From positions 1 through 64,000 of the IMG/VR virus record IMGVR_UViG_3300017759_003727: a stretch of DNA of 64,000 nt, one strand, 5' to 3'. Each line of letters opens with the position of its first letter. The first letter of the stretch is position 1. Source of the DNA: a virus. Below are positions 12,203 to 62,964 of this stretch, in pieces. The position numbers and the translations under genes were made by a program. Under the pieces are notes generated by a model, which made no database searches, was not told the DNA's origin, and worked only from the letters and a program-made list of their open reading frames with translations.

Positions 12203-12211
12203 ATTTACACT
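12203..12211 (-). promoter_or_regulatory. Late-type promoter box
   Basis: AGTGTAAAT, 6 bases, ATG at 12196 (minus strand). One of ten copies with 6-8 base spacing in the window. Confidence 0.65.
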
Positions 12212-12241
12212 ATAATAACTTAAGATAGAAATTTTTCAATT

Positions 12242-12835
12242 TTATACAAAACTATATGGGTTTTCGCCCTTTAAACTAGACAAATCCAGATTTATAGCAT
12301 TTTGTAAATCTATTATGGTTTTATCCCAATTATCAAAATCCCCTAAATAGTCAAATTTATCGTGGTTAGGTTGCAATTCCTCATACAATTCATAAAAATC
12401 ACTTTGAAAAATATCTTTTATTTGTTTGTTTTCACATAAGTGAACGAATTCGTCTTTTGTAAACTTAGTTAATGGTTCATACGATTTATAAAGATGTCTG
12501 ACGTATTCTGAATTTGGGTTAGTTTTTAGGTAATTAATAGACCCAAAGTATTTTACGGCACAATAAAACTCTTCAAATAGTTTATTTTGAGGTATTTTTA
12601 TACCAAACCAAAAATCTCCAACTTGTTTATTGACTTTATGTGTTTGAAAAATTCCATATAAAAAAGAACTTCTTCTAAAAACCGAATTATTTTGCGATAT
12701 TTTTAATGGATTATCCTTAATTCCTCTTTTAAGAGAAAAAACTTCATGTATATGACTTGAATCTTTGAATTGTTTCTGTATTAAGTCTAAAATTTTAGGA
12801 TATAACCTACAAGGAGTCGCTTGGAATATTATCAT
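12242..12835 (-). CDS. Unknown phage protein
   Basis: 197 residues, MIIFQATPCRLYPKILDLIQ onwards, ending ENPYSFV. Mixed helix and strand, rich in Phe, Tyr, Lys and Asn; soluble. The N-terminus looks like a GNAT or small alpha/beta protein, but no catalytic motif is visible. It overlaps the upstream gene by 29 bases. Confidence 0.6.
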   Translation of the reverse strand: MIIFQATPCRLYPKILDLIQKQFKDSSHIHEVFSLKRGIKDNPLKISQNNSVFRRSSFLYGIFQTHKVNKQVGDFWFGIKIPQNKLFEEFYCAVKYFGSINYLKTNPNSEYVRHLYKSYEPLTKFTKDEFVHLCENKQIKDIFQSDFYELYEELQPNHDKFDYLGDFDNWDKTIIDLQNAINLDLSSLKGENPYSFV

Positions 12836-13085
12836 CTCTACTTATTTTCGGCTCAAATTGAAAAGCGATCCTGCCAAAATTCTTATCTTTGTCCCCTATC
12901 CAAGCAGAGAACTCTATAAAATCGTCTCCCACTATAAAATCCAATATTTCAAGAAAAAAAGTTTCGTTCTGAAACTCTAATACATAGTTTTTATGGTATT
13001 TATAAGTTAAGACAGCTTCTCCATTAGCATCTTTTAGTCTATCGACTCCGTTATTTGTTCCTACTATTTTTAAATTGCCCTTCAT
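12807..13085 (-). CDS. Small beta-rich protein, unknown
   Basis: 92 residues, MKGNLKIVGTNNGVDRLKDA onwards; alternating strands suggest a beta-sandwich or head-tail accessory protein. A late-type box 6 bases upstream implies expression with the virion genes. No family recognised. Confidence 0.65.
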   Translation of the reverse strand: MKGNLKIVGTNNGVDRLKDANGEAVLTYKYHKNYVLEFQNETFFLEILDFIVGDDFIEFSAWIGDKDKNFGRIAFQFEPKISRDDNIPSDSL

Positions 13086-13091
13086 AATTTA

Positions 13092-13100
13092 ATTTACACA
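13092..13100 (-). promoter_or_regulatory. Late-type promoter box
   Basis: TGTGTAAAT, 6 bases, ATG at 13085 (minus strand). It overlaps the GTG-TAA end of the upstream methyltransferase gene. Confidence 0.6.
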
Positions 13101-13666
13101 TATTTATATACAGCCCAACATTCCTTTTTTGATTGTGATTGAAAATATTTAGGAGTAGCAATAAATTTTTCTGATACTAATCTATTTAAATGTTTCATTA
13201 TGTTTTGTTGATATCCAAAATGATGACCACAATCATCAAGCATAACTATAGTATCTCTGTGGGATAAGCCTCTACAATTAATCATATCATGATATGGCAC
13301 ATCTCCTAAATGACCACCATCAATAAAGATAAAATCATACGGAGCACTACTCATTGAGAATAAAACTTTTTTAGAGTCTCCAATAATAATTTTAAATCTA
13401 TTTGGGTATTTGTTTTTTACAAAGTCGTAACAAGTAGTAACATAATGATGTTCTCCTATATCCACTGATGTGACTTTGATGTCATCTCTTAAAGAAAGCA
13501 TAAAATCAGAAGAGTGACCCGCGTTAAACCCTACCTCTAAAACATTTTTAATTGTTGGATCATTTTTAAATAATTTTTTTAAAAAAGGTTTTTGGCCATT
13601 TATTCGACCCTCTTTTAATTGAATATTATTTCGAGATAAAAATAAGTTTAATGAGTTTTCTTCCAT
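13094..13666 (-). CDS. Class I SAM-dependent methyltransferase
   Basis: 190 residues. Rossmann-fold SAM-binding motif VLEVGFNAGHSSDFML (about residue 39), acidic ribose-binding VTSVDIGEH, then a DGGH motif (IFIDGGHLGDVPYHD) and a VMLDDCGHH motif as in O-methyltransferase/Methyltransf_24 proteins of glycan pathways. The two His/Asp motifs may bind a metal. Substrate unknown; sugars are likely given the many carbohydrate genes. Overlaps the next upstream gene by 19 bases. Confidence 0.75.
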   Translation of the reverse strand: MEENSLNLFLSRNNIQLKEGRINGQKPFLKKLFKNDPTIKNVLEVGFNAGHSSDFMLSLRDDIKVTSVDIGEHHYVTTCYDFVKNKYPNRFKIIIGDSKKVLFSMSSAPYDFIFIDGGHLGDVPYHDMINCRGLSHRDTIVMLDDCGHHFGYQQNIMKHLNRLVSEKFIATPKYFQSQSKKECWAVYKYV

Positions 13667-14449: not shown

Positions 14450-14452
14450 AAA

Positions 14453-14614: not shown

Positions 14615-14621
14615 ATAAAAC

Positions 14622-15951: not shown

Positions 15952-17813
15952 ATGCTATAATATTCTCCCATATCTCCAGTGTATCTTTTTTGTTCATCGG
16001 TTTCTTCACGCAATGAATTTAAAACAAAAAATTCTTGAATTCCTCCGTCCCAAGGTTCTGACATATCGCTCGCAGCGCCAAGGTTTGTTGGTGCTGAATC
16101 ATTATTTGCGCCATTTAATGCAAGTGAGTTAGTAACATTGCTACTGCTGATAATTTGAAGTCCACTGCCCTTAGAGCCAATTTGTAATGCTGATTTAGTA
16201 CCATATCTTGAATCGCTAGAACCCGCTGTTTTTGAATCATGGAACAGGATAACTTGAGGTAGTGCGCTATTGAAGCCTTCATGATCTTCGTATGTCCCTT
16301 CATTTAGCATCCCAGAGGTAAAGGTAATTGGATTTGGAGGACTTCCCTTAAAGCTCATTTGATATGAATTCACTGCAGTTTGAACGCTAATTGCACCATG
16401 CACAACAAAAGGACCATTACCTTGACTAATACCACCTCCATGAGCCATAGCTGCTTTTTCCGTAGCGTTTTGGGGTTCATCTACAGAACAAACAATTCCC
16501 AATGTTTTGCCTTCTGAACTTGTATTACCAACACTTTGTAACATGCCAGCATTTCCGTCTTCTTTAAATTTCATCGTTGGCAAACCATCAACAGTATGTA
16601 AAGTTCCTCCAGTTCCTAGAGTTGGAGCTTTACTAGGGCTTGGTTGCGTCCAAATGGCAGTAACGCTTGTGTCAAAATTAGAACTAACGCTTCCTCCTTC
16701 TTTAATAGACCAACTTGTGTGCCCAGTTGGCCTGTTGTCTTTTGCGTCTGCAAGAGTGTTAGAGTATCCGTAAACTAGTGGAGTACTATCACTTAAAGCA
16801 TTTTGTTGTAAGCTTTGTATTTGATGTAATGGATTTCTCTGACTACCTGCCATTCTAGTTGCATTTGTAAAAACCCAGCGTACTCCATAAGGACTATTAG
16901 AACCAAAATCATGTGGAAATAAAGCACTATAAGAAAAACCTCCACCCGCTGTCAGAGCGTATACTGGATATTCCTGGTTGCCTATAGTCACACCACTAAA
17001 TAAAGCCCAATCATGCAAACCTCCATCATCATCAGTCTTGGCAAATCCAGCATAAGTGTTCGCAGAAGATGATGCATCTGAAAAGGATAATCCTATACGT
17101 TCGCCGCTAATTGCATTGTTTCCAAATTGAAAAGGTACAACTCCGTCAACAGTAGTGCCATTTGGATTTGAAGAATATCCTGGATTTCCAGTAAATATTG
17201 ATGAATCGCCTTGGGAATACCATTTTGTCACCCTCAAATCATTACTGAATTTATTATCAGTTGCGTTGCTACCTTGATTACTTAAATCCGAAAATTCTCC
17301 TAAATTAGTAGCACTTAAAGTTTCGGTATTGGAATTAAATCCTGCAAAAAACTCAACAATTTCAGAATCAGAAGCTATTTGTCCAGCGCTATTGAATTTA
17401 ATGTCAACTTCTCTTAAGTCAAATCTTCTTTGGACTCTTATGCCGAAACCAGTATAATCTGGATTTATTTTTCTTAGTCCAAATAATTTGTCTGTATTTG
17501 AGAAAAAATCAAATAAAGCTGGGTTATCTCCACGATCAAGAAATTTAGTAATGTTTAGTGGCAAAAATCCAGCATCTACTTCATCTGTTTTAAAAACACC
17601 TGTAAATGACTCATTCCCTAGCCTATTACTTATTGTTTTATTGTATTGCTTTATAGCTTTTTCTATAGCATGTAAATTTTGAGAATTACCAGTTGCATAA
17701 TCATCCTTTAAAAAAGCTATTTTATCTACAACATTATCTTCGCCTTTGCCTGTTAAAGATAAGGTGGATTGTCCTCTAATTTTTTTTTCTAATTCATGTG
17801 GGTTATCTGCCAT
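15948..17813 (-). CDS. Tail fibre / receptor-binding protein with arabinofuranosidase-like lectin region
   Basis: 621 residues. After a short N-terminal helix region, residues 105-200 carry the pattern FGLRKINPDYTGFGIRVQRR ... DIKFNSAGQI ... RVTKWYSQGDSSIF, which matches the ArfB/concanavalin-like module common in phage tail proteins (YTGxAIRVRR ... TTWYDQSG). The rest is Gly/Ser/Asn/Thr-rich beta structure with a second jelly-roll-like stretch near the C-terminus. It should bind or process surface glycans. A late-type box precedes it. Confidence 0.8.
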   Translation of the reverse strand: MADNPHELEKKIRGQSTLSLTGKGEDNVVDKIAFLKDDYATGNSQNLHAIEKAIKQYNKTISNRLGNESFTGVFKTDEVDAGFLPLNITKFLDRGDNPALFDFFSNTDKLFGLRKINPDYTGFGIRVQRRFDLREVDIKFNSAGQIASDSEIVEFFAGFNSNTETLSATNLGEFSDLSNQGSNATDNKFSNDLRVTKWYSQGDSSIFTGNPGYSSNPNGTTVDGVVPFQFGNNAISGERIGLSFSDASSSANTYAGFAKTDDDGGLHDWALFSGVTIGNQEYPVYALTAGGGFSYSALFPHDFGSNSPYGVRWVFTNATRMAGSQRNPLHQIQSLQQNALSDSTPLVYGYSNTLADAKDNRPTGHTSWSIKEGGSVSSNFDTSVTAIWTQPSPSKAPTLGTGGTLHTVDGLPTMKFKEDGNAGMLQSVGNTSSEGKTLGIVCSVDEPQNATEKAAMAHGGGISQGNGPFVVHGAISVQTAVNSYQMSFKGSPPNPITFTSGMLNEGTYEDHEGFNSALPQVILFHDSKTAGSSDSRYGTKSALQIGSKGSGLQIISSSNVTNSLALNGANNDSAPTNLGAASDMSEPWDGGIQEFFVLNSLREETDEQKRYTGDMGEYYSI

Positions 17814-17821: not shown

Positions 17822-17830
17822 ATTTACACT
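17822..17830 (-). promoter_or_regulatory. Late-type promoter box
   Basis: AGTGTAAAT, 8 bases, ATG at 17813 (minus strand); the spacing is two bases longer than usual. Confidence 0.55.
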
Positions 17831-17835
17831 ATTTA

Positions 17836-18606
17836 TTAGAATTCTATTATTTTAAAGAAGCAGGTAACATTGCCAGTTTCAACCTCGTGGGGATTTGCTG
17901 CTGAATATGTGGCTAAAGAAAAATGTTGTCCTGTGCCCCAAGTATTGTGAGCTGTGGTGCCAGTTGCTAAAAAAACTTGATTTCGACTAACACTACTGCC
18001 GTCTGTGAATTTACAACCAGTGATTTCACCATTTTTACTATTCCCAATTAAAAGCCCGCTCCAACTGAAGTCACTATCGGAAGCGATAGTATCAAAGTGC
18101 ATAGCGGCTCTTAAAAATTGAATCTTTTTAAAGGGCACAGCGGCGCCTTGAAAATCCTGTACAAATCTTTGCCCAAGATATTGCCAAGTGCTATATGCAC
18201 CTGTATTCCCCGCCGCGTACGTCGCAGAATTGGGAGGAAGAAGCGTTAAATTCCCCGCATCGTTATTAGGGCTCATTGAACCAGTATGAAGAAATGAATA
18301 CTGAAGATCTGGCACTCCAGTAGAAAAGTTAGAAGTGCCTGTGTATGAAGAAAGTGTCCCTGTGGCGGTTTCTAAAATTTGTGTTTTTACATCAAGAGAG
18401 CCTGTAGCAAGAGCTAATACTCCAGTAGCCGCTAATAACTCTCCTGTTCGAGTTTGAATTCCGCCAATATCATAATTACCACTTATTGTGTCTTCTATAC
18501 TTTTAAAGGTTATTTTTTTAGTTATAGAAGCGTCGACAGCTACAAACAGATCTGTTGCAACTGGATCAGTAAACGCTGTCAATTCTGTAATTTTTACTTC
18601 TGCCAT
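17836..18606 (-). CDS. Short tail fibre-like virion protein
   Basis: 256 residues. The start VKITELTAFTDPVATDLFVA followed by VDASITKKITF is the conserved N-terminus of many phage fibre and short-fibre proteins. A Thr/Ser/Gly-rich repeat region (residues 55-95, with TGxLALATGSL-type repeats) leads to a beta-rich C-terminal domain that likely binds the receptor. Expressed from a late-type box just upstream. Confidence 0.8.
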   Translation of the reverse strand: MAEVKITELTAFTDPVATDLFVAVDASITKKITFKSIEDTISGNYDIGGIQTRTGELLAATGVLALATGSLDVKTQILETATGTLSSYTGTSNFSTGVPDLQYSFLHTGSMSPNNDAGNLTLLPPNSATYAAGNTGAYSTWQYLGQRFVQDFQGAAVPFKKIQFLRAAMHFDTIASDSDFSWSGLLIGNSKNGEITGCKFTDGSSVSRNQVFLATGTTAHNTWGTGQHFSLATYSAANPHEVETGNVTCFFKIIEF

Positions 18607-18612: not shown

Positions 18613-18621
18613 TATTACACT
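18613..18621 (-). promoter_or_regulatory. Late-type promoter box
   Basis: AGTGTAATA, 6 bases, ATG at 18606 (minus strand). It overlaps the GTG-TAA end of the upstream gene. Confidence 0.6.
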
Positions 18622-19115
18622 ATTTTTATTAAATTAATTTTAAAAAACTCTAATTCTTCAGTATCCATTGATTCGTCTCTTTCCATTTCTGGAAAGGCTT
18701 TTTTTAATAAATTTTGATAAATTTTTGACCTGTGCCTTTTTTTTAAAACAGGCAAAATAAAAGTATTGACACCTTTTTTATTTAAATCTTTGAAAGCTTC
18801 TATCGAAAGCGCTCTAAAAACTTTTTTAGAGTATTTCCCATACATGTGATTCCAGGAAAAAATTTCACATTTAAATGTTTCGTCTTTTATTACTCCATAA
18901 ATTAAACATACTAATCCACCGTTATTGTGCGCGCTTAATTGATAAAGGTTTGGATCAAAGCGAATAGCATCAAAACCATTCAAACAATACATTAATTCTT
19001 TGTCGTCCATTAATTTAGAAAAATTGATTTTTATGCAATTTTTTAAGCTTTGTTTATTATATGTCTTGGACAGCTGATATATTTGATTATCTACTTTTAT
19101 TTTAGTGTAATACAT
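18615..19115 (-). CDS. Possible GNAT-type acetyltransferase
   Basis: 166 residues from the ATG at 19115 (MYYTKIKVDNQIYQLS); a TTG four codons upstream would overlap the divergent tail gene. A central segment (NNGGLVCLIYGVIK) and the C-terminal FKDLNKKGVNTFILPVLKKR / IYQNLLKKAFPEM have the order of strands and helices of GNAT proteins, like the gene at 28460. No acetyl-CoA loop is clearly conserved, so this is tentative. Confidence 0.5.
   Translation of the reverse strand: MYYTKIKVDNQIYQLSKTYNKQSLKNCIKINFSKLMDDKELMYCLNGFDAIRFDPNLYQLSAHNNGGLVCLIYGVIKDETFKCEIFSWNHMYGKYSKKVFRALSIEAFKDLNKKGVNTFILPVLKKRHRSKIYQNLLKKAFPEMERDESMDTEELEFFKINLIKIV
19104..19112 (+). promoter_or_regulatory. Late-type promoter box for the tail-tip operon
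   Basis: AGTGTAATA, 6 bases, ATG at 19119 on the plus strand. It is inside the divergent minus-strand gene's first codons. The identical spacing on the opposite strand is strong support for the motif. Confidence 0.7.
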
Positions 19116-33235: not shown

Positions 33236-33871
33236 ATGCCAAGGAATATTAATTTACCCAAAACTAGGGTTTTTATAAGGAAAGATATGTGGGGTGGTTC
33301 TGAGAAAGAATTTGAACCAGCATGGTTAGTTTCAGTTAGGGCATTAAGAGGTAGACCTTTTTGTTTTCAAGTATGGGTTGATGGCTTTTGCGCTTGTTAC
33401 GATAAGGTTAGATTAGACTGCTTATACTGGAAAACACCAGAAAAAGATCACGAAAAACTAGATTTAGTTGACGTGCAAATGTGGGAATGTTTATCAAATG
33501 ATATAGAATTATTTCACAAAGCACAATTAGCAGACGTTCCTATGTTGGTCAACATGGGAGATGGTGATTTTCAAGAAGGGAATTACTGGTTTACTATAGA
33601 CTGCATACCAGAAAAACAATCTTTGGGGTACTTAGATGTTGGCGATTCTGATTTGCTTGATGAACACAAAGAAATGAATGTAATTAAGTTGAAGAATGGT
33701 CAAGTAGCTATTTATCCAAATAATAGATTAAAATGGATTCCAGAATCATTGAGTAGTATTGAAGCTATCAAAAATATCCCGAAATGGGAAGTTGCAGAAA
33801 ACGCAATATGGGATAAAGAATGGTTGGAGCAACCTTATGAATTATTTGGAGATTCAGATTGGAGCTATTAA
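33236..33871 (+). CDS. Unknown phage protein (plus strand)
   Basis: 211 residues from ATG 33236 (MPRNINLPKTRVFIRKDMWG). The frame is open to a TTG at 33200, but the late-type box 6 bases before the ATG places the start. Soluble, Trp/Asp/Glu-rich, with Cys near residue 55 (FCFQVWVDGFCACYDKVRL). Convergent with the gene ending at 33868 (4-base overlap). No family recognised. Confidence 0.65.
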   Translation: MPRNINLPKTRVFIRKDMWGGSEKEFEPAWLVSVRALRGRPFCFQVWVDGFCACYDKVRLDCLYWKTPEKDHEKLDLVDVQMWECLSNDIELFHKAQLADVPMLVNMGDGDFQEGNYWFTIDCIPEKQSLGYLDVGDSDLLDEHKEMNVIKLKNGQVAIYPNNRLKWIPESLSSIEAIKNIPKWEVAENAIWDKEWLEQPYELFGDSDWSY

Positions 33872-35010
33872 GCCTCTTCTATTTCTTCATATTGTCGTTC
33901 CTTTTCAACATAATTTGGGAACATATACATAAACATCTGCTGAAAAGATTCAGTATGTTCTGGATGCATTTCTAACAGAAATGGCTTTACTTGTTTGTAT
34001 ATTTCGTAATTTTGATAAAATTTTTCTAAATCCGAAAGCCCCTCTGTTGCAATTAAAAACAAATGCCTACTAATTAAATCATTGGCTATAATTAGTGCGT
34101 TTACTTTTTCTTTTTCAAAATACTTAGCTATAAAAGTTTTTTCATTAAAAGAAGAAACAATGTCAGAAGATTTAAAATATTTTTTTAAAAAATTTATTAA
34201 ATAGTTTTTTGCGTAATTAAAATTAAGATTATATGCCGTTTTTTGTAAACTAGTAAATAAATCCAAGCAATAAGAATTTTCAAAGTTAATAATTTTTATC
34301 ATATCGTCTCTATATAGAATAGAAGATTTTTTAATATCAAAATGACTAAAAACATTAGTGCTTACTGTATAGTTCTGATCTATAAATTCTTTGTTTTTCT
34401 TAAGTATATTCTCTATATCAAAAGCGCTAAATCCAAAATATGTAACCATATTCGATTCAATATCAATATCTTCTTCGATAAAGCCAACAACTGATGCATG
34501 AATATCATGCATATCTGATAAAGTTGGCAAATTATCAACACTTGATTCATGTATTGTATCTAAGGTATTACAAAAAGTGCCTAGGTTATAATTTAAATCA
34601 TCACTATCAAAATCTTCAAAAGAATAACCATTTTCAAATGTTGTACAAAGATAATGAGGTAATTCTCCTGTGTTTGATGATATAACTGTTGGGGAAACCA
34701 ATGAAAGACCACTAACTCCTGTTGGCAAATTGCTTATTGCAATTTTTTCCATTCCAATGCTATCGGTACCAGTAATATAGCTAATTTTGATCATTTTTCT
34801 GCTATTTTCAAAATCTAAAGCGAAGGTATCATAAAAAAAGCTTTGATGAACTTGTTTCATATTTAATATTTCACCAAAACCACTTATTAAAGGATCTTCT
34901 GTATGTATTGTTTGAAGAAGTCCAGATTCTATAGAATCAACAGCCACAAAGTCTTTTTTCACTCCTGCTGATATTAGAGGCGAGTTGTACGCAATTTCCT
35001 TAAAGTCCAT
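33868..35010 (-). CDS. APH/choline-kinase-like protein, probable pseudokinase
   Basis: 380 residues. In the middle it has the aminoglycoside-phosphotransferase/choline-kinase arrangement: VFSHFDIKKSSILYRDDMIK then IINFENSYCLDLFTSLQ. The catalytic motif should be HxDxxxxN with a later D; here it reads HFDIKKSS and INFEN, so the Asn and the metal-binding Asp are replaced (by Ser and Asn). Kinase activity is therefore doubtful. N-terminal 150 residues are a separate beta-rich region. It is expressed from a late-type box; role unknown. Confidence 0.55.
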   Translation of the reverse strand: MDFKEIAYNSPLISAGVKKDFVAVDSIESGLLQTIHTEDPLISGFGEILNMKQVHQSFFYDTFALDFENSRKMIKISYITGTDSIGMEKIAISNLPTGVSGLSLVSPTVISSNTGELPHYLCTTFENGYSFEDFDSDDLNYNLGTFCNTLDTIHESSVDNLPTLSDMHDIHASVVGFIEEDIDIESNMVTYFGFSAFDIENILKKNKEFIDQNYTVSTNVFSHFDIKKSSILYRDDMIKIINFENSYCLDLFTSLQKTAYNLNFNYAKNYLINFLKKYFKSSDIVSSFNEKTFIAKYFEKEKVNALIIANDLISRHLFLIATEGLSDLEKFYQNYEIYKQVKPFLLEMHPEHTESFQQMFMYMFPNYVEKERQYEEIEEA

Positions 35011-35016: not shown

Positions 35017-35025
35017 TATTACACA
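35017..35025 (-). promoter_or_regulatory. Late-type promoter box touching a terminator
   Basis: TGTGTAATA, 6 bases, ATG at 35010 (minus strand). The first base of the box is the end of the terminator U-tract. Confidence 0.65.
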
Positions 35026-35050
35026 AAAAAGGCGGTATTTCTACCGCCTT
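35025..35050 (-). terminator. Rho-independent terminator
   Basis: 9-bp perfect stem AAGGCGGTA with a GAAA tetraloop and a T6 tract on the minus strand. It ends the replication operon that runs from 40514 down to 35056. Confidence 0.9.
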
Positions 35051-44859: not shown

Positions 44860-44868
44860 ATTTACACT
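44860..44868 (-). promoter_or_regulatory. Late-type promoter box
   Basis: AGTGTAAAT, 6 bases, ATG at 44853 (minus strand), in the gap after the upstream stop. Confidence 0.65.
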
Positions 44869-45270
44869 TTAGCCTAAAAGCTTTGAAAAATATTCTTCAG
44901 ATAGTTCATCATCTGGGTATATAAGCAGGAGTTCTATGTTATTTAGCTCACAAAAGTCCATTTTTTTATCATCTCTGCGTAATTGTCTAACAAAATTAGC
45001 CCTAGTTTTGTGAAAATGCTTAACAAACTTTAAATGTTGAGCTCCTTGTACTTCTATAGCTATTTTTCTACTATGATTATAAAAATCTAAAGAAAGTTGT
45101 GTGCCAGCTACTTTAAACTCTTCATATACAGCATCATATCTCCAATGTTTATATAAGTATTTTCTTACTTCTGCTTGAAATTTGCTACGACATTTACCGT
45201 TCCACTTGATTTTGTACCTATGTGGATTTCTAATTGGTTTTTCTTTGCCGTATAGAGTAATAAATTTCAT
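44869..45270 (-). CDS. Vsr/DUF559-like PD-(D/E)XK endonuclease
   Basis: 133 residues. KFQAEVRKYLYKHWRYDAVY ... LSLDFYNHSRKIAIEVQGAQ has the D...ExQ core of Vsr-/DUF559-type small nucleases, ending IELLLIYPDDELSEEYFSKL. Such phage proteins may act as resolvases or repair nucleases. It follows the terminator of the barrel-protein gene. Confidence 0.65.
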   Translation of the reverse strand: MKFITLYGKEKPIRNPHRYKIKWNGKCRSKFQAEVRKYLYKHWRYDAVYEEFKVAGTQLSLDFYNHSRKIAIEVQGAQHLKFVKHFHKTRANFVRQLRRDDKKMDFCELNNIELLLIYPDDELSEEYFSKLLG

Positions 45271-45276
45271 AATAAA

Positions 45277-45306
45277 AAAGCCCTCACTTATAATAGAGAG
45301 GGCTTT
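45277..45306 (-). terminator. Bidirectional Rho-independent terminator
   Basis: 9-bp perfect stem AAAGCCCTC / GAGGGCTTT with a 12-base loop and T-rich tracts on both sides. It ends the outer-membrane protein gene on the minus strand. Confidence 0.9.
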
Positions 45307-46056: not shown

Positions 46057-46075
46057 ACTGAGAGATTGAATATAA

Positions 46076-47188
46076 TTACACAAGTTCTCCAATATTGGAT
46101 TTAAAATAATTTATTAAAAATTTAGAAAGCTCTTCATTTTCTTCTACCATTTTAAACAAATTAGCTTCTCCTTGAACTTTCTCTGGTAGCTCTGAAGCTA
46201 CTTCCGCTACAAGTTCTTTAAATTCTTCTCCAATAGTAATCCAAGCACCTTTTTTGGTGACAAATTCCCACATATACAATAAGTCAACAAGCTCTTTCTC
46301 TACCCAAATAGACTTACCGCCAACTCTACCATATCTGATTGGATACATAATAGTGTTATTAGTTTTTTCGTTTGGAGATTTTTTAATAGTAACTTTAGCC
46401 CAATGACCAATAATTGGATTGGTTTTGGGGTCTGGTTGTTTTTTGGTTGGATCTTGTAGAATCATATCTGACTTAAATCTAGGCTCAAACTCCATAATGT
46501 AATTAGCAAAGTGTAATAATGCATTACCGCCTGTTGCTGACGTTTGACGTATCGGAGCTTTGGAGTATGGGTCTAGTTTGATGTCTGCCCTCACTTGACT
46601 GATGAAAATGGCCATATGGCCCCTTTTTGCAAGAGATATTGACATTCTCTTCATAAAATTAGCTGCAATAACTGCTCCACCAGCTACTTTATTTGAATCA
46701 TAGAAGGATTTATCTATATCTACTTGCGATATTAAGCCATCAACAGAGTCTAAAACAAAACAGTATTTAAATTTATCTTCATTTTGCTCTACTAGAGTCT
46801 TAATGCCGTCAACAACCACTTCATAAATATTACTTTCAAATACGAAACAAGTACCAGCAACCCATTGTTTTGCGTCATATACAAACTTAATGCCAGATCT
46901 AGCTACCATTTCATTGGATAAACGACCTTCAGCTTTGATATAAAAGCCTTTTGCATCTTTTTGTGTATTTAGCATGTTCTTCATGACCTCTAATGCTGCT
47001 GATGTTTTACCACCTTCATTCATTCCGACAAACCTGTGTAACCCTGGCCCGAATCCGCCATTTAGGTTTAAATCAAGCTGAAGCGATCCGCTTGATGCTT
47101 TATAATCAACTGATTCCTCAAAGTTGTAATGTTGTCCCTTTTTATCTTTTAGGAACTTGTCTAGTATTTCTGAATCTTTATCACTCAT
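46076..47188 (-). CDS. RecA/UvsX-like recombinase
   Basis: 370 residues. Walker A GMNEGGKTS (about residue 53), a Walker B-like FKYCFVLDSVDGLI, an ISQVRADI segment, and the L2-like TSATGGNALLHFANYIMEF resemble RecA family recombinases. It should form filaments on ssDNA and work with the annealing protein and nucleases nearby. It overlaps the next gene upstream by 4 bases. Confidence 0.8.
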   Translation of the reverse strand: MSDKDSEILDKFLKDKKGQHYNFEESVDYKASSGSLQLDLNLNGGFGPGLHRFVGMNEGGKTSAALEVMKNMLNTQKDAKGFYIKAEGRLSNEMVARSGIKFVYDAKQWVAGTCFVFESNIYEVVVDGIKTLVEQNEDKFKYCFVLDSVDGLISQVDIDKSFYDSNKVAGGAVIAANFMKRMSISLAKRGHMAIFISQVRADIKLDPYSKAPIRQTSATGGNALLHFANYIMEFEPRFKSDMILQDPTKKQPDPKTNPIIGHWAKVTIKKSPNEKTNNTIMYPIRYGRVGGKSIWVEKELVDLLYMWEFVTKKGAWITIGEEFKELVAEVASELPEKVQGEANLFKMVEENEELSKFLINYFKSNIGELV

Positions 47189-47532: not shown

Positions 47533-48457
47533 AATCCCAATTATGGTATACATTCAAATTTTTGTCAAGCCTGTTTTGTAAATAATTTTTACGAAAATCG
47601 TCTTTTATTTCCCATTTACCGTGATTTCTATCATGATTGTATTTCAAGGAAGCTTTTGAGTGATTTTGCAATCTATGCATTAATAAAGATTGTGTATACA
47701 AACGAACATTATATTTTTCAGATAAAGCTCTGTGCAAAAGCTCAAAATCTTCTCCTATAATAATATCCTCTCTGAACTTGCAGTTAACAAATCTATTTAC
47801 ATCAACAACAATTTGACCATAACAAACATTAACACCTGCTTCTTTAAAATATCTATAAATACAGTCGTTTTTACCTATTAGGGCTCCTTTTACTCTATTA
47901 TCCTTTTCTTCAAAGCGTAGGGTTTCTATTTCTAGGCAAGAGGGTTGAGAGGTTCTATTATTACTACATAGCAACGAAAATTTGGCAAAGTTAGTAAAAG
48001 CTAAACCAGCGTTTCGCCAAGTGTTTTGTTTTTTCACTTCATAAAGGTGTCCGTTTGGCAAAGCAACGTGTTGTCCATGACAAAAAATATCTAAGTTGTA
48101 TTTTTTAATACATTTTTTAGCAACCTCCAGTCTTGTGGGATAAGATGCGTCGTCAATATCGCAAAACATAATATATTTTGTGTTACAATGTCTGGCAGCA
48201 TAATTTCTAGAGAAACCAGGATTTTTTCTGTCTTTTACAGATATATATTTTATAGGTATTTCTTTTGCCCGAACTCTTATTTTTTTTGGTTTATCATCAA
48301 AATAATTTTTAGGTAAACCATTGGCAGAAACTATTAAATGATCAAAAGTTTCAGTTTGAAACGATAAAACATCTAAAGCCCAATTAAGATAATGAACATC
48401 TCTATCGCAACAAGTTATCGCTACCGTATAAGATTCATTATAGTTGTTCAATGTCAT
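47507..48457 (-). CDS. Family 2 glycosyltransferase
   Basis: 316 residues. GT-A start (YTVAITCCDRDVHYLNWALD), ...FSRNYAARHCNTKYIMFCDI then DDA, the DxD-type metal site (CDIDDASYP). Long C-terminal region with Arg/His. It is the last gene of the carbohydrate operon (60846 to 47507) and overlaps the next gene by 26 bases. Confidence 0.8.
   Translation of the reverse strand: MTLNNYNESYTVAITCCDRDVHYLNWALDVLSFQTETFDHLIVSANGLPKNYFDDKPKKIRVRAKEIPIKYISVKDRKNPGFSRNYAARHCNTKYIMFCDIDDASYPTRLEVAKKCIKKYNLDIFCHGQHVALPNGHLYEVKKQNTWRNAGLAFTNFAKFSLLCSNNRTSQPSCLEIETLRFEEKDNRVKGALIGKNDCIYRYFKEAGVNVCYGQIVVDVNRFVNCKFREDIIIGEDFELLHRALSEKYNVRLYTQSLLMHRLQNHSKASLKYNHDRNHGKWEIKDDFRKNYLQNRLDKNLNVYHNWDYENRKSDV
47540..47568 (-). 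promoter_or_regulatory. sigma70-type promoter giving leaderless mRNA (recA operon)
   Basis: TTGACA, 17 bases, CATAAT, 7 bases, ATG at 47532. It lies inside the 3' end of the upstream glycosyltransferase gene. Confidence 0.75.
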
Positions 48458-49469
48458 TTGTGATCATCCTGCGCACTAAAGAATCAAAGGACACAGATTT
48501 TTCCCAATTTAAATCTTTTTGAGCTTCCGATGGATCGCCTAATAAAAGCTCTACCTCTGCTGGTCTATAAAACTTAGGATTTACTTTAACAACTGGTTTG
48601 TCTTTAAAATACAAAACTTCTTCTTCTCCAGAACCAGTCCAGTGATATTCTGCTTCTTTAATTTCTGCATACTTAAAAGCGAGGTCGACAAATTCTTTTA
48701 CGGAATGTGTTTCACCAGAAGCGAGAAGATAGTCTTTAGGTTTATCTTCTTTAAGCATTAACCAAACAGCTCTAACAAAATCTTCTGCATGACTCCAATC
48801 TCTTTGTGCTTCTAGGTTACCTAACTCAATTGGCTCAAAACCATTTCCAGATTCTATCGCTTGTTTAATTTTAGCAATGCCTTTTGTAATTTTTCTTGTT
48901 ACGAATTCTTCTCCACGACGCTCTGATTCGTGATTAAAAAGATAACCTTGAACGGCAAACAAATCATATGAATCTCTCCATACTTTCACAATCTGTCTTG
49001 CGGCCACCTTAGATGCACCATAAGGACTACGTGGTCTAGATGGATGTTCCAGATCTTGTGGGCTATAAATTACATCACCAAACTCTTCTGAAGATCCAGC
49101 GTTATAATAACGACATTTGGGGCAGTGTTTTCTAATAGATTCTAATTGATGCAAAACTCCCATTGTGTTATTTTGAAAATGATTGACTGGCATCTTCCAA
49201 CTCAAACCAACAAAAGAATTAGCTGCAAAGTTAATAAAGTAATCTGGTTTAATTTCTTCGATGCAAGCGTTAATACTGTGTTCATCACCTAAATCCATTT
49301 CAACTAAATGAAATTTAGGATTAGATTTTAAATGTTCTATATGTTGGTGATTTGGGACACTTAATCTTCGAATAGCTCCATAAACTTCTACGTTTGTAAA
49401 TTTAAGTAAAAACTCGACCATATAAGAGCCGACTTGACCAGTAACACCTGTAACTATAGCTTTTTTCAT
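48438..49469 (-). CDS. gmd: GDP-mannose 4,6-dehydratase
   Basis: 343 residues; an SDR of the Gmd type: VTGVTGQVGSYMVEFLL (NAD(P)-binding), NFAANSFVGLSWKMP, GSSEEFGDV, SPYGASKVAARQIVK (YxxxK), YLFNHESERRGEEFVTRKIT, DWSHAEDFVRAVWLML. It converts GDP-D-mannose to GDP-4-keto-6-deoxymannose, precursor of GDP-fucose, rhamnose and perosamine. Overlaps the neighbours by 4 and 20 bases. Confidence 0.85.
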   Translation of the reverse strand: MKKAIVTGVTGQVGSYMVEFLLKFTNVEVYGAIRRLSVPNHQHIEHLKSNPKFHLVEMDLGDEHSINACIEEIKPDYFINFAANSFVGLSWKMPVNHFQNNTMGVLHQLESIRKHCPKCRYYNAGSSEEFGDVIYSPQDLEHPSRPRSPYGASKVAARQIVKVWRDSYDLFAVQGYLFNHESERRGEEFVTRKITKGIAKIKQAIESGNGFEPIELGNLEAQRDWSHAEDFVRAVWLMLKEDKPKDYLLASGETHSVKEFVDLAFKYAEIKEAEYHWTGSGEEEVLYFKDKPVVKVNPKFYRPAEVELLLGDPSEAQKDLNWEKSVSFDSLVRRMITNDIEQL

Positions 49470-55012: not shown

Positions 55013-56093
55013 AATTGTTTACTACTTTTACTATGTGATTTACTTCTTCTTTTGTAAGCCACCATCCTACTGGTATGTTGACCAATTGATTGTCAAAAAT
55101 TGTTAAGTTGGTGTCTTGTTTTTTAAAATTTTTAAAAACAGAGTAGGTGTCATTTCTGACATGAACTCTGTCTGCGCTTATTCCGTTTTTGTTCATATAC
55201 TTTATGAATTTTTTTCTATCCTTAACTAACATAGAGTAAATCCAACTAGCAGAAAAGGTTTCAAAGGGTTTGTCCATTTTTTTAACATATTGATTATTAA
55301 TGTTACTATCGTAGTAATCTGAGTTGACTACATGTTGATGGATTATATGATTTATTACTTCTAGATTTTTTAGGCCTATAGAAGCGTTTATATTATTCAT
55401 GTGGTATTTATATCCAGACTCTTTAATATCTTGATCCCATCTGCTCTTTCCTTTAAATTTTCTATCTAAGCCAAACCATCTAATCTTTTTAATTCTATCT
55501 ACGTCTTTTTTTCTTTTGCAGGCTATAGCGCCTCCGTCTCCACATGTTAGATGTTTAATAGCTTGAAAAGAAAAGCATACAAAATCAGAATGGTTTCCTA
55601 TTTTTTTACCTTTATACACAGAGCCTAAGGCATGTGCGGCATCTTCAATTACTTTTAATTTATGTTTTTTTGCAATTTTATTAATAGTTTTAATATCACA
55701 AGGTTGTCCAGCCCAATGAACGATTACTATGGCTTTTGTTTTAGGTGTAATTAAATTTTCTATTGATTTTGGACATATGTTACCCGTTTCTAATTCAACG
55801 TCCGCAAAAACTAAATTAAGACCCATATTATAGAAAGGCTCGTTTGTGGCCATACAGGTCATTGCAGTAGTGATTACTTCGTCACCTGGTTTTAGGTCGC
55901 AAGCAATTGCTGCTAAATGTAAAGCTGAAGTGCAACTATTTGTAAGAGATATATTTTTATTACCAATAAATTTTGAAAACTTTTTTTCAAATAAATCTGA
56001 ATAATATCCTTCTGTAAGTTGCCCACTTTCTAATACTTCTTGCACTAATTGACCACAACTTTTATGTATGTAGGGTTTAAATAATGGTATCAT
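55005..56093 (-). CDS. DegT/DnrJ/EryC1 aminotransferase
   Basis: 362 residues from the ATG at 56093 (MIPLFKPYIHKSCGQLVQEV), which overlaps the upstream TGA as ATGA. PLP enzyme motifs: TNSCTSALHLAAIACDL, VIEDAAHALGSVYKGK and the PLP-lysine SFQAIKHLTCGDGGAIACK. It transfers an amino group to a keto nucleotide sugar made by the adjacent dehydratase. Confidence 0.85.
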   Translation of the reverse strand: MIPLFKPYIHKSCGQLVQEVLESGQLTEGYYSDLFEKKFSKFIGNKNISLTNSCTSALHLAAIACDLKPGDEVITTAMTCMATNEPFYNMGLNLVFADVELETGNICPKSIENLITPKTKAIVIVHWAGQPCDIKTINKIAKKHKLKVIEDAAHALGSVYKGKKIGNHSDFVCFSFQAIKHLTCGDGGAIACKRKKDVDRIKKIRWFGLDRKFKGKSRWDQDIKESGYKYHMNNINASIGLKNLEVINHIIHQHVVNSDYYDSNINNQYVKKMDKPFETFSASWIYSMLVKDRKKFIKYMNKNGISADRVHVRNDTYSVFKNFKKQDTNLTIFDNQLVNIPVGWWLTKEEVNHIVKVVNNYE

Positions 56094-57106
56094 AATTCTT
56101 CTAACCAATGTTTGTTTTTTAGGTTCCATAAAACAGTCTTTTTTAAACTGTTTGCAAAATCAATTGGGGGTTTCCAACCTAATTTTTCTAATTTACTTCC
56201 ATCTAAGGAATATCTTAAATCATGGCCAGGCCTATCTGAATGAAAATCTACCATTTCATATTTTGGTTTAATATTCATAGAGTCTCCGATCATTTTTACT
56301 ATATCTAAATTTGAAACTTCTTTTGTCCCTACAATGTTGTATTTACCTAAAGAAGCGTCCTTCCCGTCTAAAAACTCAGTTGCGTTTTCTAGTATAAATA
56401 TAAAAGCATCTGAAACATTTCTTGCGTGAATATAATAACGACTGCCAGATTTTTTCTTATCTGGATAACTGTGAACCATAATTGTTTCTTCTTTTAAAAT
56501 AGAACCTATAACTTTAGGTACAAATTTTTCAGAGTGTTGCCTTTCTCCAATAATATTCATTGTATTCGTGATTATAATCGGAAGCCTATATGTATTTGCG
56601 TAAGATTGACATATGCACTCTGCTGCAGCTTTACTCGCAGAGTATGGATTGCCACAATTGTACCTATCTCCTTCTTTGTAAGCTACCCCTTCTGGCGCAT
56701 AACCGAAAACCTCATCAGTTGAAAAATAAATAAACTTTTTTAAATTTTTAGCATGAGTTCTGCAAAATTCTAAAAGATTTACTGTAGATGAGACATTGTT
56801 TTGAATAAAAGTTGATGGGTCGGAAATAGAATTATCAACATGTGACTCTGCCGCTATGTGAAGTATGTAGTCAACATCTTTAATTTCTTCTGCTAAACCT
56901 AATGGAATTTTTGAACATAAATCGAAAGAAAAGAAATTTACTCTTGGATTTGTTATAGCCGCGGTTTCCCTCAATCTTTTTAAACCAAAACTAGAATAAC
57001 TTAATTGATCTATACAGTATATTTCCCAATCTGTATTTCTTAATATATGGTCTAAGACGTGATGCCCCACGAAACCGTTTGAACCTGTTAAAATAACTTT
57101 TTTCAT
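56090..57106 (-). CDS. NDP-glucose 4,6-dehydratase-like (RmlB-type)
   Basis: 338 residues. LTGSNGFVGHHVLDHIL, ILHIAAESHVDNSISDP, KFIYFSTDEVFGYAP, NPYSASKAAAECICQSY (YxxxK) and RYYIHARNVSDAFIFIL match dTDP-glucose 4,6-dehydratases. It makes the 4-keto-6-deoxy intermediate used by the aminotransferase. Confidence 0.8.
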   Translation of the reverse strand: MKKVILTGSNGFVGHHVLDHILRNTDWEIYCIDQLSYSSFGLKRLRETAAITNPRVNFFSFDLCSKIPLGLAEEIKDVDYILHIAAESHVDNSISDPSTFIQNNVSSTVNLLEFCRTHAKNLKKFIYFSTDEVFGYAPEGVAYKEGDRYNCGNPYSASKAAAECICQSYANTYRLPIIITNTMNIIGERQHSEKFVPKVIGSILKEETIMVHSYPDKKKSGSRYYIHARNVSDAFIFILENATEFLDGKDASLGKYNIVGTKEVSNLDIVKMIGDSMNIKPKYEMVDFHSDRPGHDLRYSLDGSKLEKLGWKPPIDFANSLKKTVLWNLKNKHWLEEL

Positions 57107-58218
57107 TTTAATTTTTTATGCATTAGAAAGCTTTCTGTATCTATAGTAAAACCTTCTATCTCCTTTTCAATAAAGCCTATATCTTTATATAGATTGATTG
57201 CTGTTTTGTTTTGTTTTTTTACTAGAAGGTATATATCATCTTCCTCAATCATTTCAAAAAAATCATAGTATAGTTGTTTTGCTAGTCCTAAACCTCTTTT
57301 GCTTTTATGTAAATCCATACCAACGAAGAATAAATTATTTTCATTTGAAGTTCTAAAATAACCTATTTTTTCATCATTCATCTTTATAGTATAAAAATTT
57401 GGATTTGTTTCTTTAAACCATTTTATTGATTCTTCTTTTGTATACTTAGATGTATTGTGTAGCATTTGCCTGCAATCATTTCTTACCTCATTATAGAAAG
57501 GGACATCTTCTAGAATCATTTTTTTTATAGAGAAATCATTAAATATATAATTGTAATACTTTCTCCTGTGGTTTTTTTGTTTTTCATTAAACAACTTTTC
57601 GATTTCATGCATGCCGAAACTTGTGTATAATTTAGATTGATCTGGAGAATGATGCTCTGTTGAAAAATTTGAACAAGTATTTATATCTGCGTATTTAAAG
57701 CCTTCAAATACTAAAGCTTGATTAAAGGAAAAAGATGTTATTAAGTCTTCAGCCTCTTCAGAAAAAAGAGATTCGTGTTTTTCGTATAATTGAGAAACTC
57801 TTTTGCAAAAATTATAAGACCTAAGGGAAAATCCCCCATTCCCGCAGTATAAAAAACCTTGATGATGCATTGGTGCTCCGATATAATCAAAATTTAAAAA
57901 ACTGTCATCCCAAGCAGAGGGGTTTCTTATAAAGCCATCGGTATGAAAATTTATCATATACTTTGTGGCAAATAATTTAAAATAATTTTTTAATACATAC
58001 TTGGTGAAGTTTTCGTATGGTATTTCTTTGATTATTTCTATTTCAAAATCACCGACATCTATAGTTGGTTCTTCTATTGTGTATATAATTTTCTTACCGA
58101 AGTTTATATGTCTAGAAGTCTTTTGACCTATTTTTAGAATAGAATCTATGTCAGAATACGGTTTATCTGTCTTATTGCCTACTATTGATAGATAAGTAAT
58201 TTCTGGAAGATTTAACAT
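57103..58218 (-). CDS. Glycosyltransferase-like domain fused to GNAT acetyltransferase
   Basis: 371 residues. Residues 1-210 resemble DUF5672-type glycosyltransferases (MINFHTDGFIRNPSAWDDSF, YIGAPMHHQGFLYCGNGGFS). Residues 230-371 are a GNAT domain: IGYFRTSNENNLFFVGMDLH, KSKRGLGLAKQLYYDFFEMI (acetyl-CoA loop RGLGLA) and NKTAINLYKDIGFIEKEIEG. The fusion would acylate an amino sugar and transfer it, matching the neighbouring dehydratase and aminotransferase. Confidence 0.75.
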   Translation of the reverse strand: MLNLPEITYLSIVGNKTDKPYSDIDSILKIGQKTSRHINFGKKIIYTIEEPTIDVGDFEIEIIKEIPYENFTKYVLKNYFKLFATKYMINFHTDGFIRNPSAWDDSFLNFDYIGAPMHHQGFLYCGNGGFSLRSYNFCKRVSQLYEKHESLFSEEAEDLITSFSFNQALVFEGFKYADINTCSNFSTEHHSPDQSKLYTSFGMHEIEKLFNEKQKNHRRKYYNYIFNDFSIKKMILEDVPFYNEVRNDCRQMLHNTSKYTKEESIKWFKETNPNFYTIKMNDEKIGYFRTSNENNLFFVGMDLHKSKRGLGLAKQLYYDFFEMIEEDDIYLLVKKQNKTAINLYKDIGFIEKEIEGFTIDTESFLMHKKLK

Positions 58219-60846: not shown

Positions 60847-60855
60847 TTATACGCA

Positions 60856-60883
60856 ATACTAATGCATATAACTAAAAAGTCAA
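60856..60883 (-). promoter_or_regulatory. sigma70-type promoter of the carbohydrate operon
   Basis: TTGACT, 16 bases, TAGTAT, 9 bases, ATG at 60846 (minus strand). The transcript would start at most two or three bases before the ATG. It appears to drive the 13-kb carbohydrate operon. Confidence 0.7.
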
Positions 60884-60890
60884 TCTATTT

Positions 60891-61073
60891 TTAAGTCTTT
60901 CTGTGCTCTCTCCAGTCTTTTCTATGTAATCTGACCCATGTTAATAAAGCTTTTTCAAAACCTATATCTTCTTGGGCTTTTTGTGATTCTATCCACTTAA
61001 GTTTTAATATTTCTTCTCTTTCCGCTAAGAACTCTTGATAAAGAGTAGATCCTGTGGCGAAATGACTAGACAT
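60891..61073 (-). CDS. Conserved small phage protein
   Basis: 60 residues from the ATG at 61073 (a TTG one codon upstream is the alternative); TGATG overlap with the previous gene. EREEILKLKWIESQKAQEDI then GFEKALLTWVRLHRKDWREH is a short pattern found in many phages (IGFExALxxWxxxHR). Function unknown. Confidence 0.7.
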   Translation of the reverse strand: MSSHFATGSTLYQEFLAEREEILKLKWIESQKAQEDIGFEKALLTWVRLHRKDWREHRKT

Positions 61074-62062
61074 CAATAACCTTCTTCTTCGATAACTTGA
61101 GCTTCGGAAAGTTGGGGATAAATATCAAGAAGTGAAGCATCTGATGATAATTCTGCTTCTACTTTTTTGCCAGCTCTCCATTGTTTGCAAGACCAATATC
61201 TGGCTTTGTATTTGGGGCCAGGATTTGTATCGCATTTGTGTCTAGCTCTAAATGATTTACGACGTTCTGGATCATCTCTTTTGATTTCCATATTTGGGTC
61301 ACCAAAAGTAACTTTAACTACATTACCTTTATCGTTTTTTACATAAACACCAAATTTTTTCTTAGACCCCTTAGGTAATCTAAATGGTTTATTTAAAGTT
61401 TTAGCTTCAGCGCTATCTATATCAAATATTGATATACCTTCTTCTTCTAAAATTTCAGAAACAGTTGAGCCTATGGAAAGTAAATCTATTTTTGCTAGTG
61501 CAAATTCTATTTTTGAAATATCTTTATTTTCTTGAAAATCTCCAGGACTCCATGTTTCTGCCTGTAATTCAATGAAAGGAAGTTCTTCTTCTGAAGCTCT
61601 AGCAACATCTTGGTCAGCTTTACGATATGATTCCTTAACTTTGCCGCCTCTCATCATTTTGAGAAACATATTAACTCTAGCCATGGCCCAGGCAGCTCTA
61701 GACTGACCTGGCCTATGTGATGAAGAAAATGCACCAAGACCCCTTCTGTAGACCTTCTTAAGCATACCTAGAGTCACTTTTCTAGAATGTTTTTCATTGT
61801 GCTCTTTAACCTTGTTTTTAAGGGAGGTGGTGACTTTTTCACTGAAAGTTATTTTACCCTTGGCTTCTTTAACCAAGTCTTTTTCGTCCTGTCTCTTTAG
61901 GATTTTTTTTGATTTTTGTTTGGAGTCTGGAGAAGTGCCAGCGGAGCCAGGCTCATTCTTAGAAGAGCCTTTCTTTTTTTCTTCTGGTTTTGCTGGTGTT
62001 TGTGCAGAACTTTTCGGTCCTGGTCTACCTGCTACAATCTCATTTGTAAAATCTAACTCCAT
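61073..62062 (-). CDS. Conserved phage protein (DUF5824-like, CDTNPGPK motif)
   Basis: 329 residues. A Lys/Ser/Pro-rich N-terminus (residues 1-75), then VTLGMLKKVYRRGLGAFSSS followed by HRPGQSRAAWAMARVNMFL (DUF5824-like), and a C-terminal FGVYVKNDKGNVVKVTFGDP ... FRARHKCDTNPGPKYKARYW. I recognise both segments in other phages, often inside larger virion- or protease-associated proteins. Expressed from a late-type box, so probably a structural or packaging-related protein. Activity unknown. Confidence 0.75.
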   Translation of the reverse strand: MELDFTNEIVAGRPGPKSSAQTPAKPEEKKKGSSKNEPGSAGTSPDSKQKSKKILKRQDEKDLVKEAKGKITFSEKVTTSLKNKVKEHNEKHSRKVTLGMLKKVYRRGLGAFSSSHRPGQSRAAWAMARVNMFLKMMRGGKVKESYRKADQDVARASEEELPFIELQAETWSPGDFQENKDISKIEFALAKIDLLSIGSTVSEILEEEGISIFDIDSAEAKTLNKPFRLPKGSKKKFGVYVKNDKGNVVKVTFGDPNMEIKRDDPERRKSFRARHKCDTNPGPKYKARYWSCKQWRAGKKVEAELSSDASLLDIYPQLSEAQVIEEEGY

Positions 62063-62068
62063 GGTATT

Positions 62069-62077
62069 ATTTACACA
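62069..62077 (-). promoter_or_regulatory. Late-type promoter box
   Basis: TGTGTAAAT, 6 bases, ATG at 62062 (minus strand). It overlaps the GTG-TAA end of the upstream gene. Confidence 0.65.
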
Positions 62078-62661
62078 TTTTTAAGTTTAAATATATATTT
62101 TAATTGATTATTTGGTGAAATTTCTTCTGCAAAGAGAAAATATGGAGACAGAATACTAAAAAGAACCTCAAATTCTATTTTTTTACTTATTCCTAATTTA
62201 TTGAATTGAGCTTTTATTTCTATTTCTTTTATTTTAGTTTTATTAAAATTTATACCTTTTATAACCTCAGATTCATAACCTTCAACATTTAAATACAGTT
62301 TTTCTATTTCTAGTATGTTTATTTCTTCTAGTATTGCTTGCAGTGTAGATGCTGAACATTTATGTTTTTTAGCAGAATGTATTTCTATTTGTTCGCTTAC
62401 AAAATCTTCTTTTACATCTAAAACGCTACATTGCTCTAGGGAATGTTTTTCGTTTAAAATTATATAATTATCTTTATACTCTGAAGAAACTAACGCTTTG
62501 TTGATTAAAATATTTTTCTCTGTTCTGTTTTGTTTTAATCTATCAAATGAATATGGGTGGGGTTCGATCAGTATACAACATATGTCTTCATAACTATCAC
62601 ACCAAGAAGTGACGCCTTGAAACAAGCCATCCTGGGCACCAGCTTCTATTACATAATGCAT
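62071..62661 (-). CDS. FkbM-family methyltransferase
   Basis: 196 residues from the ATG at 62661 (MHYVIEAGAQDGLFQGVTSW), overlapping the upstream TAA. FkbM pattern: VIEAGAQDG (SAM site), CILIEPHPYSFDRLKQN, TLQAILEEINILEIEKLYLN then VEGYESEVIKGI. O-methylation of sugars is the usual role. Confidence 0.75.
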   Translation of the reverse strand: MHYVIEAGAQDGLFQGVTSWCDSYEDICCILIEPHPYSFDRLKQNRTEKNILINKALVSSEYKDNYIILNEKHSLEQCSVLDVKEDFVSEQIEIHSAKKHKCSASTLQAILEEINILEIEKLYLNVEGYESEVIKGINFNKTKIKEIEIKAQFNKLGISKKIEFEVLFSILSPYFLFAEEISPNNQLKYIFKLKNV

Positions 62662-62948
62662 TAGCCCCAAAGATTATAAGCTATAATACCTGCAATTGCA
62701 GTAAGCAAACCGCTAATAAAAATCCAAGATAGTTTATTAAATGTAGTCATGAAAGCCTTTGTTTCTCCAACAGTTCTTTCCATTTCCATCATTCTTGAAT
62801 TCATATCATCTATTTTTTTGAACAATACATCTGTAAGTGTGCCTAATTGAATTAGTTTTTCTTCAGCTCTAGCGATTGAAATAACAGCATCAGATAGTTT
62901 GTCTATCTTCTCCTCCATTCTCGTTAATCTATCTTCATTTTCGGACAT
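62661..62948 (-). CDS. XhlA-like membrane protein (lysis accessory)
   Basis: 95 residues: an N-terminal coiled coil (NEDRLTRMEEKIDKLSDAVI, VLFKKIDDMNSRMMEMERTV) and a C-terminal membrane helix (LSWIFISGLLTAIAGIIAYN LWG end). This matches haemolysin XhlA/holin-accessory proteins. The late-type box fits a late lysis role. Confidence 0.7.
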   Translation of the reverse strand: MSENEDRLTRMEEKIDKLSDAVISIARAEEKLIQLGTLTDVLFKKIDDMNSRMMEMERTVGETKAFMTTFNKLSWIFISGLLTAIAGIIAYNLWG

Positions 62949-62955
62949 TAAAATG

Positions 62956-62964
62956 TTTTACACT
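62956..62964 (-). promoter_or_regulatory. Late-type promoter box
   Basis: AGTGTAAAA, 7 bases, ATG at 62948 (minus strand), located right after the nrdA stop. Confidence 0.6.

Follow-up and report, generated by a model that had tools for sequence, protein, structure and literature searches.

Why should the same nine bases stand directly in front of one ATG after another, on both strands of a phage genome? The sequence in question, WGTGTAAWW (W being A or T; hereafter the box), was noticed in a first-pass annotation of IMG/VR virus record IMGVR_UViG_3300017759_003727, in the stretch referred to here as the window (bases 1–64,000 of a record of 82,910 bases; 33% G+C). Ten copies had been listed, and all ten were found at their places, six bases before the ATG in eight cases, seven before that at 62948 and eight before that at 17813. 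We followed the box into the 18.9 kb of the record past the window and into 11 further long relatives; counts over the 12 records refer to this set.

The number of copies carries no argument: WGTGTAAWW occurs 15 times in the window against 9.8 expected, and the raw count was dropped as evidence by itself. It is the placement that is non-random. Nine of the 19 copies in the whole record lie exactly six bases before an ATG, where 0.32 would be expected (P = 8e-12), and over the 12 records 115 of the 456 copies of GTGTAA end 7–11 bases before a called ATG. When these letters were arranged in the 89 other possible ways and put through the same test, the median was 1, the highest value without overlap with the box being 7. 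The first-pass annotation had named as grounds for giving up the idea a motif no commoner before ATG codons than elsewhere, and these counts are the opposite. Of eight records examined one by one, seven have GTGTAA as the hexamer with the strongest enrichment ahead of starts (P from 1e-11 to 1e-30), and every one of the 12 has 2–16 boxes at that place against 0.2–0.6 expected. In an alignment of 35 non-redundant cases, which had been selected by the nine box bases, those nine bases and the ATG are conserved and little else; the consensus is WGTGTAAWW, and no conserved positions of a −35 element were seen upstream of it in these cases. A conserved box, placed non-randomly before ATG, is thereby confirmed in the record and its relatives.

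The distribution of the box over genes points to transcription. Over the 12 records, only 2 of 529 overlapping or abutting operon genes have it (0.4%), as against 37 of 139 divergent genes (27%) and 55 of 169 same-strand genes that follow a gap of 13–40 bases (33%). Because operon-internal genes are equally in need of translation signals and almost never carry the box, it has the signature of a transcription start, and it is located, as a promoter of the sigma-70 family would be, at the starts of transcription units. An intrinsic terminator before the gene 33868–35010 illustrates the point. The last base of its T-run is at the same time the first T of the box; the gene should accordingly be transcribed from the terminator–ATG gap that holds the box, and this abutment is kept in five relatives. 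In the same gap, more distant relatives have TATAAT, TATCAT or TATTAT 4–7 bases before the start, and one (L024) has TGTGTATAAT, in which box and TATAAT type are combined. Since the box is interchangeable with TATAAT at this one gene, and host-type promoters are equally placed, it would occupy the place of a −10 element. Judged by its placement, then, the box behaves as a putative promoter and not as a translation signal.

The spacing says more. Over the 12 records, 2 boxes lie at 5 bases from the ATG, 64 at 6, 24 at 7, 19 at 8 and 6 at 9, a one-sided distribution with a sharp lower edge at 6. At box distance ATG is found 116 times against 14 expected (eightfold), whereas GTG (9 against 7) and TTG (19 against 19) are not enriched. 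In sigma-70 promoters the −10 element ends about six bases before the first RNA base, and GTG and TTG starts are poorly used by leaderless messages. A gap of six bases, together with the usual distance from −10 element to start, places the expected RNA start on the A of the ATG, hence leaderless messages, and we infer that the box genes make such messages, their RNA beginning at about that base. Phage AR9 was considered as a leaderless precedent and dropped, as its paper reports leaders of 26–491 bases. The first-pass reading of the box as a promoter of one single element, peculiar to the phage and similar in geometry to the T4 late promoters, and as neither a −35/−10 pair nor a Shine–Dalgarno sequence, holds in the main and is partly supported, the fixed spacing going further, to a promoter that appears to be fused to the start codon.

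A second class of sequence enriched in these phages is TATAAT shortly before ATG, with TTGA(CA) 17–19 bases upstream (P ~1e-10). Full host-type promoters (TTGACA-N17-TATAAT) also lie 5–8 bases from the ATG, and the class is that of an ordinary host-type promoter. The two types meet at portal-like genes of relatives, where nested AAAGTTAACTTT-type repeats are followed by the box and then by TATAAT 5–8 bases before the ATG, forming overlapping box/TATAAT promoters (G007 72430, minus strand; G008 18900, plus; G002 12129, plus; G017 101578, minus). As a separate observation, at 45270–45300 (minus strand) the HNH endonuclease gene starts immediately behind an intrinsic terminator hairpin with its T-run, and in relatives TATAAT lies in the loop of this hairpin (GCCCTCTCTATAATAGGAGAGGGCTTTTTTATG).

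Three other explanations of the box deserve to be weighed. Its fixed position is the usual one of a Shine–Dalgarno sequence, for which box RNA might stand in by pairing with the ribosome or with a phage initiation factor, and the scarcity of true Shine–Dalgarno sequences would agree with this: by a strict rule they occur at 0 of 86 near boxes, against 6 of 35 far ones, and at 65 of 1135 in these phages overall. Such a translation signal is nevertheless very improbable in view of the near absence of the box from operon-internal genes, the lack of enrichment before GTG and TTG, the terminator that abuts it, the presence of TATAAT with a −35 element in the same place at other genes and orthologs, and a spacing edge that is one-sided where a symmetric peak would be expected. 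The motif might also be mimicked by gene ends in GTG-TAA that happen to lie 6–8 bases before the next ATG. Indeed, three of the ten window boxes close a gene-length open frame (13092, 18613 and 62069; 208, 182 and 200 codons), although the first-pass annotation had counted five and had suggested that the box doubles as a stop. Only 15 of 113 boxes over the 12 records overlap the stop of a called gene, however, divergent genes have the box as often as stated above, and letter-shuffled words with TAA show no such pattern; the overlap is incidental, and as the origin of the motif the stop-codon effect is refuted, retaining next to no probability.

The third explanation makes the box an operator, the target of an activator or a repressor of the phage, lying across an ordinary −10 element that the host sigma factor reads. 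The GTG before the TAAWW core could be a recognition half-site joined to a weak −10, and some boxes are palindromic (TTTACAC-N5-GTGTAAA at 80996–81041 of the record, and similarly in G002 and G008). Yet most boxes are single and unpaired, there is neither a −35 element nor any conserved base beyond the nine, activators normally sit upstream of the −10 element and not on it, and genes for phage sigma factors are present, so that we consider an operator unlikely.

No late sigma factor gene was seen in the window by the first-pass annotation, but a sigma factor gene is found just outside it, where that annotation had advised looking: the gene of Sig-A (66646–67227; 193 amino acids) lies 2.6 kb beyond the window end. 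Sig-A matches PHROG 351, ‘RNA polymerase sigma factor’, over residues 1–173 (E 4e-8; 1e-9 in a relative), and its region-4 part (residues 128–191) matches PHROG 36 (E 9e-7), giving homology to both region 2 and region 4 of the sigma-70 family. A KFSTY-like region 2 motif is kept, and each of the 50 Protein Data Bank (PDB) fold matches listed for the Sig-A model is a sigma factor or a complex that contains one (best E 3e-5). A search of the record with the Pfam Sigma70_r4 profile gave no match, while that with region 2 did. Sig-A is found in 11 of the 12 long records; here its gene is flanked by those for a deoxynucleoside monophosphate (dNMP) kinase and a single-strand-binding protein, and in several relatives TTGACA-type promoters head its operon. 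A second candidate, Sig-B, resembles the extracytoplasmic function (ECF) sigma factors and is encoded in six records just upstream of the terminase genes, the other records ending at or lacking that region. Several Sig-B operons are headed by a TATAAT-type leaderless start. Pfam Sigma70_r2 matches Sig-B above the cut-off in three records and r4_2 weakly; its PDB matches are ECF sigmas, with E only 0.01, and its best PHROG match, 1740, the phiEco32 gp36 family, is weak (E 0.002). In a profile comparison neither Sig-A nor Sig-B was significantly similar to T4 gp55 or phiEco32 gp36. Most members of Sig-B (L091–L098) have cysteine pairs between regions 2 and 4, and the gene always stands directly before the same gene order leading to terminase, a place that may resemble that of the ArpU/RinA late regulators of Gram-positive phages.

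Sig-A is the favoured candidate reader of the box, since it is found throughout and seems to be made early. Sig-B is a serious alternative; among known promoter words the nearest is tAATGTAtA of phiEco32, which goes with a sigma of ECF type (PMC4331800). On the evidence of these sequences, the box is probably the −10-type element in a class of promoters that is specific to the phages and lacks a −35 element, read by a phage sigma factor and giving RNA that starts at or next to the AUG. Its TAAWW part would lie at the −10 position, so that RNA would begin with the A of the ATG or 1–3 bases ahead of it, and a minority of boxes would act over longer gaps, some with a Shine–Dalgarno sequence. Host-type promoters would be active first, with the phage sigma factor or factors among their products, and RNA polymerase, presumably that of the host, would then read the box when carrying the phage sigma.

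Several observations weigh against this reading. Thirty-five boxes near genes sit further from the ATG, most of them without a clear Shine–Dalgarno sequence; the sister records G016 and G020 have few boxes (2–3) despite carrying Sig-A; the Sig-A model is of modest quality (predicted local distance difference test, pLDDT, 78), and its Pfam region-2 scores fall below the curated cut-off. Joint variation of the box and either sigma across records is uninformative, as the records are fragments and those without Sig-B end at the terminase region or lack it. Boxes also precede genes that are not for virion proteins, namely PhoH and a minor set of metabolic or unknown genes.

Among known systems, the late promoters of T4 (TATAAATA), which are read by the gp55 sigma with gp33 and the gp45 clamp (PMC2988020, PMC7892883) and lie about one helical turn upstream of the transcription start (PMC2988020), offer the closest geometry. 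Both have a single short box, rich in A/T, at −10 and no −35 element (PMC2988020), with an A/T-rich segment behind the box; given an RNA start at the ATG, the TAAWW of the box is in register with the T4 TAAAT; and both serve structural genes, with a phage sigma as the probable reader here. Unlike the T4 sequence, the box begins with GTG and not TA, its consensus being WGTGTAAWW and not TATAAATA, and it stands 6–9 bases from the ATG instead of 14–28, hence the leaderless messages predicted here. In a control on the T4 late region with the same kind of script, TATAAATA was found 14–28 bases before the start, 19 of 41 genes had a Shine–Dalgarno sequence, and GTGTAA was not seen. Sig-A (PHROG 351) and Sig-B (PHROG 1740, weakly) also match other PHROGs than that of T4 gp55 (PHROG 234), and no sliding clamp gene was recognised among the genes scanned, without a systematic search.

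Phages phiEco32 and 7-11 use promoters of phage ECF sigmas, tAATGTAtA and TGATGT (PMC4331800). As with the box, there is a single element near −10, no classical −35 and a small phage-encoded sigma as reader, a probable one in the case of the box, and the words are alike (AATGTATA / AGTGTAAT), but copies are few there (~6–10 per genome) and the genomes are unrelated. In bacterial leaderless promoters of sigma-70 or sigma-A the −10 element lies 6–7 bases before the AUG (PMC4633059, PMC3160421). The phages' TATAAT class is of this kind, and the box shares with such promoters an element 5–8 bases from the AUG and the lack of a Shine–Dalgarno sequence, whereas the GTGTAA class differs in sequence, has no −35 and seemingly forms a phage sigma regulon. 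The late promoters of phiKZ, reported as TATG with the start at G (PMC5312081), are likewise very short and lie at the message start, but there the reader is a multisubunit RNA polymerase of the phage, and no such enzyme was seen among the genes examined here.

Table 1. Boxes and associated signals in the window, with the distance in bases to the start codon
Feature	Position	Strand	Distance	Start and remarks
Box AGTGTAAAT	12203..12211	−	6	ATG 12196; 161-aa gene 11711–12196
Box TGTGTAAAT	13092..13100	−	6	ATG 13085; GTG-TAA closes upstream frame
Box AGTGTAAAT	17822..17830	−	8	ATG 17813; 621 aa, without family match
Box AGTGTAATA	18613..18621	−	6	ATG 18606; TAA closes upstream frame
Box AGTGTAATA	19104..19112	+	6	ATG 19119; minor tail protein L, PF05100 (E 1e-36)
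Box AGTGTAAAA	33221..33229	+	6	ATG 33236; PHROG 3704, listed as ferredoxin
Box TGTGTAATA	35017..35025	−	6	ATG 35010; same layout in L006, L008, L009, L012, L015
Intrinsic terminator AAGGCGGTAGAAATACCGCCTTTTTT	35025..35050	−		T-run ends in first base of box before 35010
Box AGTGTAAAT	44860..44868	−	6	ATG 44853; gene of 87 aa, upstream of that for the DnaB-like helicase; box conserved in many relatives
Box TGTGTAAAT	62069..62077	−	6	ATG 62062; TAA closes upstream frame
Box AGTGTAAAA	62956..62964	−	7	ATG 62948
Box AGTGTAAAT	6540..6548	−	22	RIIB start 6517; gap with AAAGGAA (Shine–Dalgarno)
Box TGTGTAATT	46074..46082	−	35	Start 46038; gap with AGGAGG (Shine–Dalgarno)
Host-type promoter TTGACA-N17-TATAAT (contrast class)	2473..2501	−	7	ATG 2465

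The two boxes with longer gaps in Table 1, at 6540–6548 and 46074–46082, are additions to the original ten. Far boxes with a Shine–Dalgarno sequence include these two, before RIIB and 46038, and genes of 2,471–3,132 amino acids in relatives. Past the window the record has two more boxes, before 78960 (minus strand) and 81041 (plus strand). At 80996–81041 (L083:5996–6041) divergent genes share the palindrome TTTACAC-AAAAA-GTGTAAA, which gives one box per strand; the gap is 6 bases long for one and 17 bases for the other, where it contains AGGAATAAGG. Similar palindromes occur in G002 and G008. The choice of 12196 as a start, made in the first-pass annotation, is borne out by conservation, its frame being 88–93% identical in two relatives against 64–70% for the competing frame from 12204. 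The two minus-strand frames, 11707–12204 and 11711–12196, overlap and are of nearly equal length, and both are also open in G007 and G013; the latter is the real gene, but the former is open over 165 codons in all three. A TATTAT of its own stands 7 bases ahead of the ATG of the former frame (TATTATAGTGTAAATG), and a host-type promoter thus overlaps the box.

Which genes does the box serve? They include those for the tape measure, tail protein L, RIIB (with the longer gap), the PHROG 3704 protein and many unknowns, and in a relative a PhoH gene is preceded by the box. The claim that it precedes virion and lysis genes is too narrow as regards PhoH and the minor metabolic or unknown set. Median gene size is 137 amino acids behind host-type promoters and 242 behind boxes. 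This pattern of sizes and genes fits, without proving, an early host-sigma class and a middle/late phage-sigma class, and the label ‘late’ should better be read as ‘phage-sigma (middle/late)’, a predicted timing.

The record comes from a tailed phage. Its tail genes (tail L, tail assembly, J) are lambda-like, and it has genes for a tape measure, a DnaE-type polymerase, a DnaB-like helicase, a primase, a UvsX-like recombinase, ribonucleotide reductase and RIIA/RIIB. Genes at 48438–49469 and 56090–57106 (minus strand) both match one nucleotide-sugar epimerase family, and an acetyltransferase-like gene (57103–58218) lies in the same stretch. Relatives number at least 80 among uncultured virus contigs, whereas a megablast search with 20 kb of the record matched no close cultured phage, and the helicase matches listed from the phage collection, at ~25% identity only, include no close cultured relative. 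Relatives of the box gene 17836–18606 and of the tape measure, searched for in viral contigs, were not found. Among bacterial assemblies, relatives of the terminase came from one Flavobacteriaceae bin, one Verrucomicrobiales bin and one other bin. The Bacteroidetes-type promoter TANNTTTG was not enriched (11 against 8.1, 11 against 10.5 and 7 against 8.1 expected). A literature search for GTGTAA in connection with phage late promoters gave no earlier description, most subscription papers lying outside its coverage.

Phage promoters read by phage sigma factors are known from few cultured models (T4, phiEco32 and SPO1). The box appears to be a variant of such single-box promoters, in a family without a cultured member in the collections searched. 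It may further be, with belief and doubt about evenly balanced, that in these uncultured tailed phages, a widespread family, the middle/late programme depends on promoters that are fused to start codons, a phage sigma acting on GTGTAA, polymerase starting on the AUG itself and the change of sigma shifting expression to leaderless messages; Sig-A and Sig-B may divide the programme between them. For a phage family that is abundant but uncultured, a strong and conserved promoter word can be read straight from sequence, together with candidate sigma genes. It marks operon starts and true start codons and, even where no host is in culture, allows genes to be assigned to a host-sigma or a phage-sigma regulon. 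It would also imply leaderless expression of phage genes, structural ones among them, and offers a ready test of how leaderless messages are produced and translated in infection.

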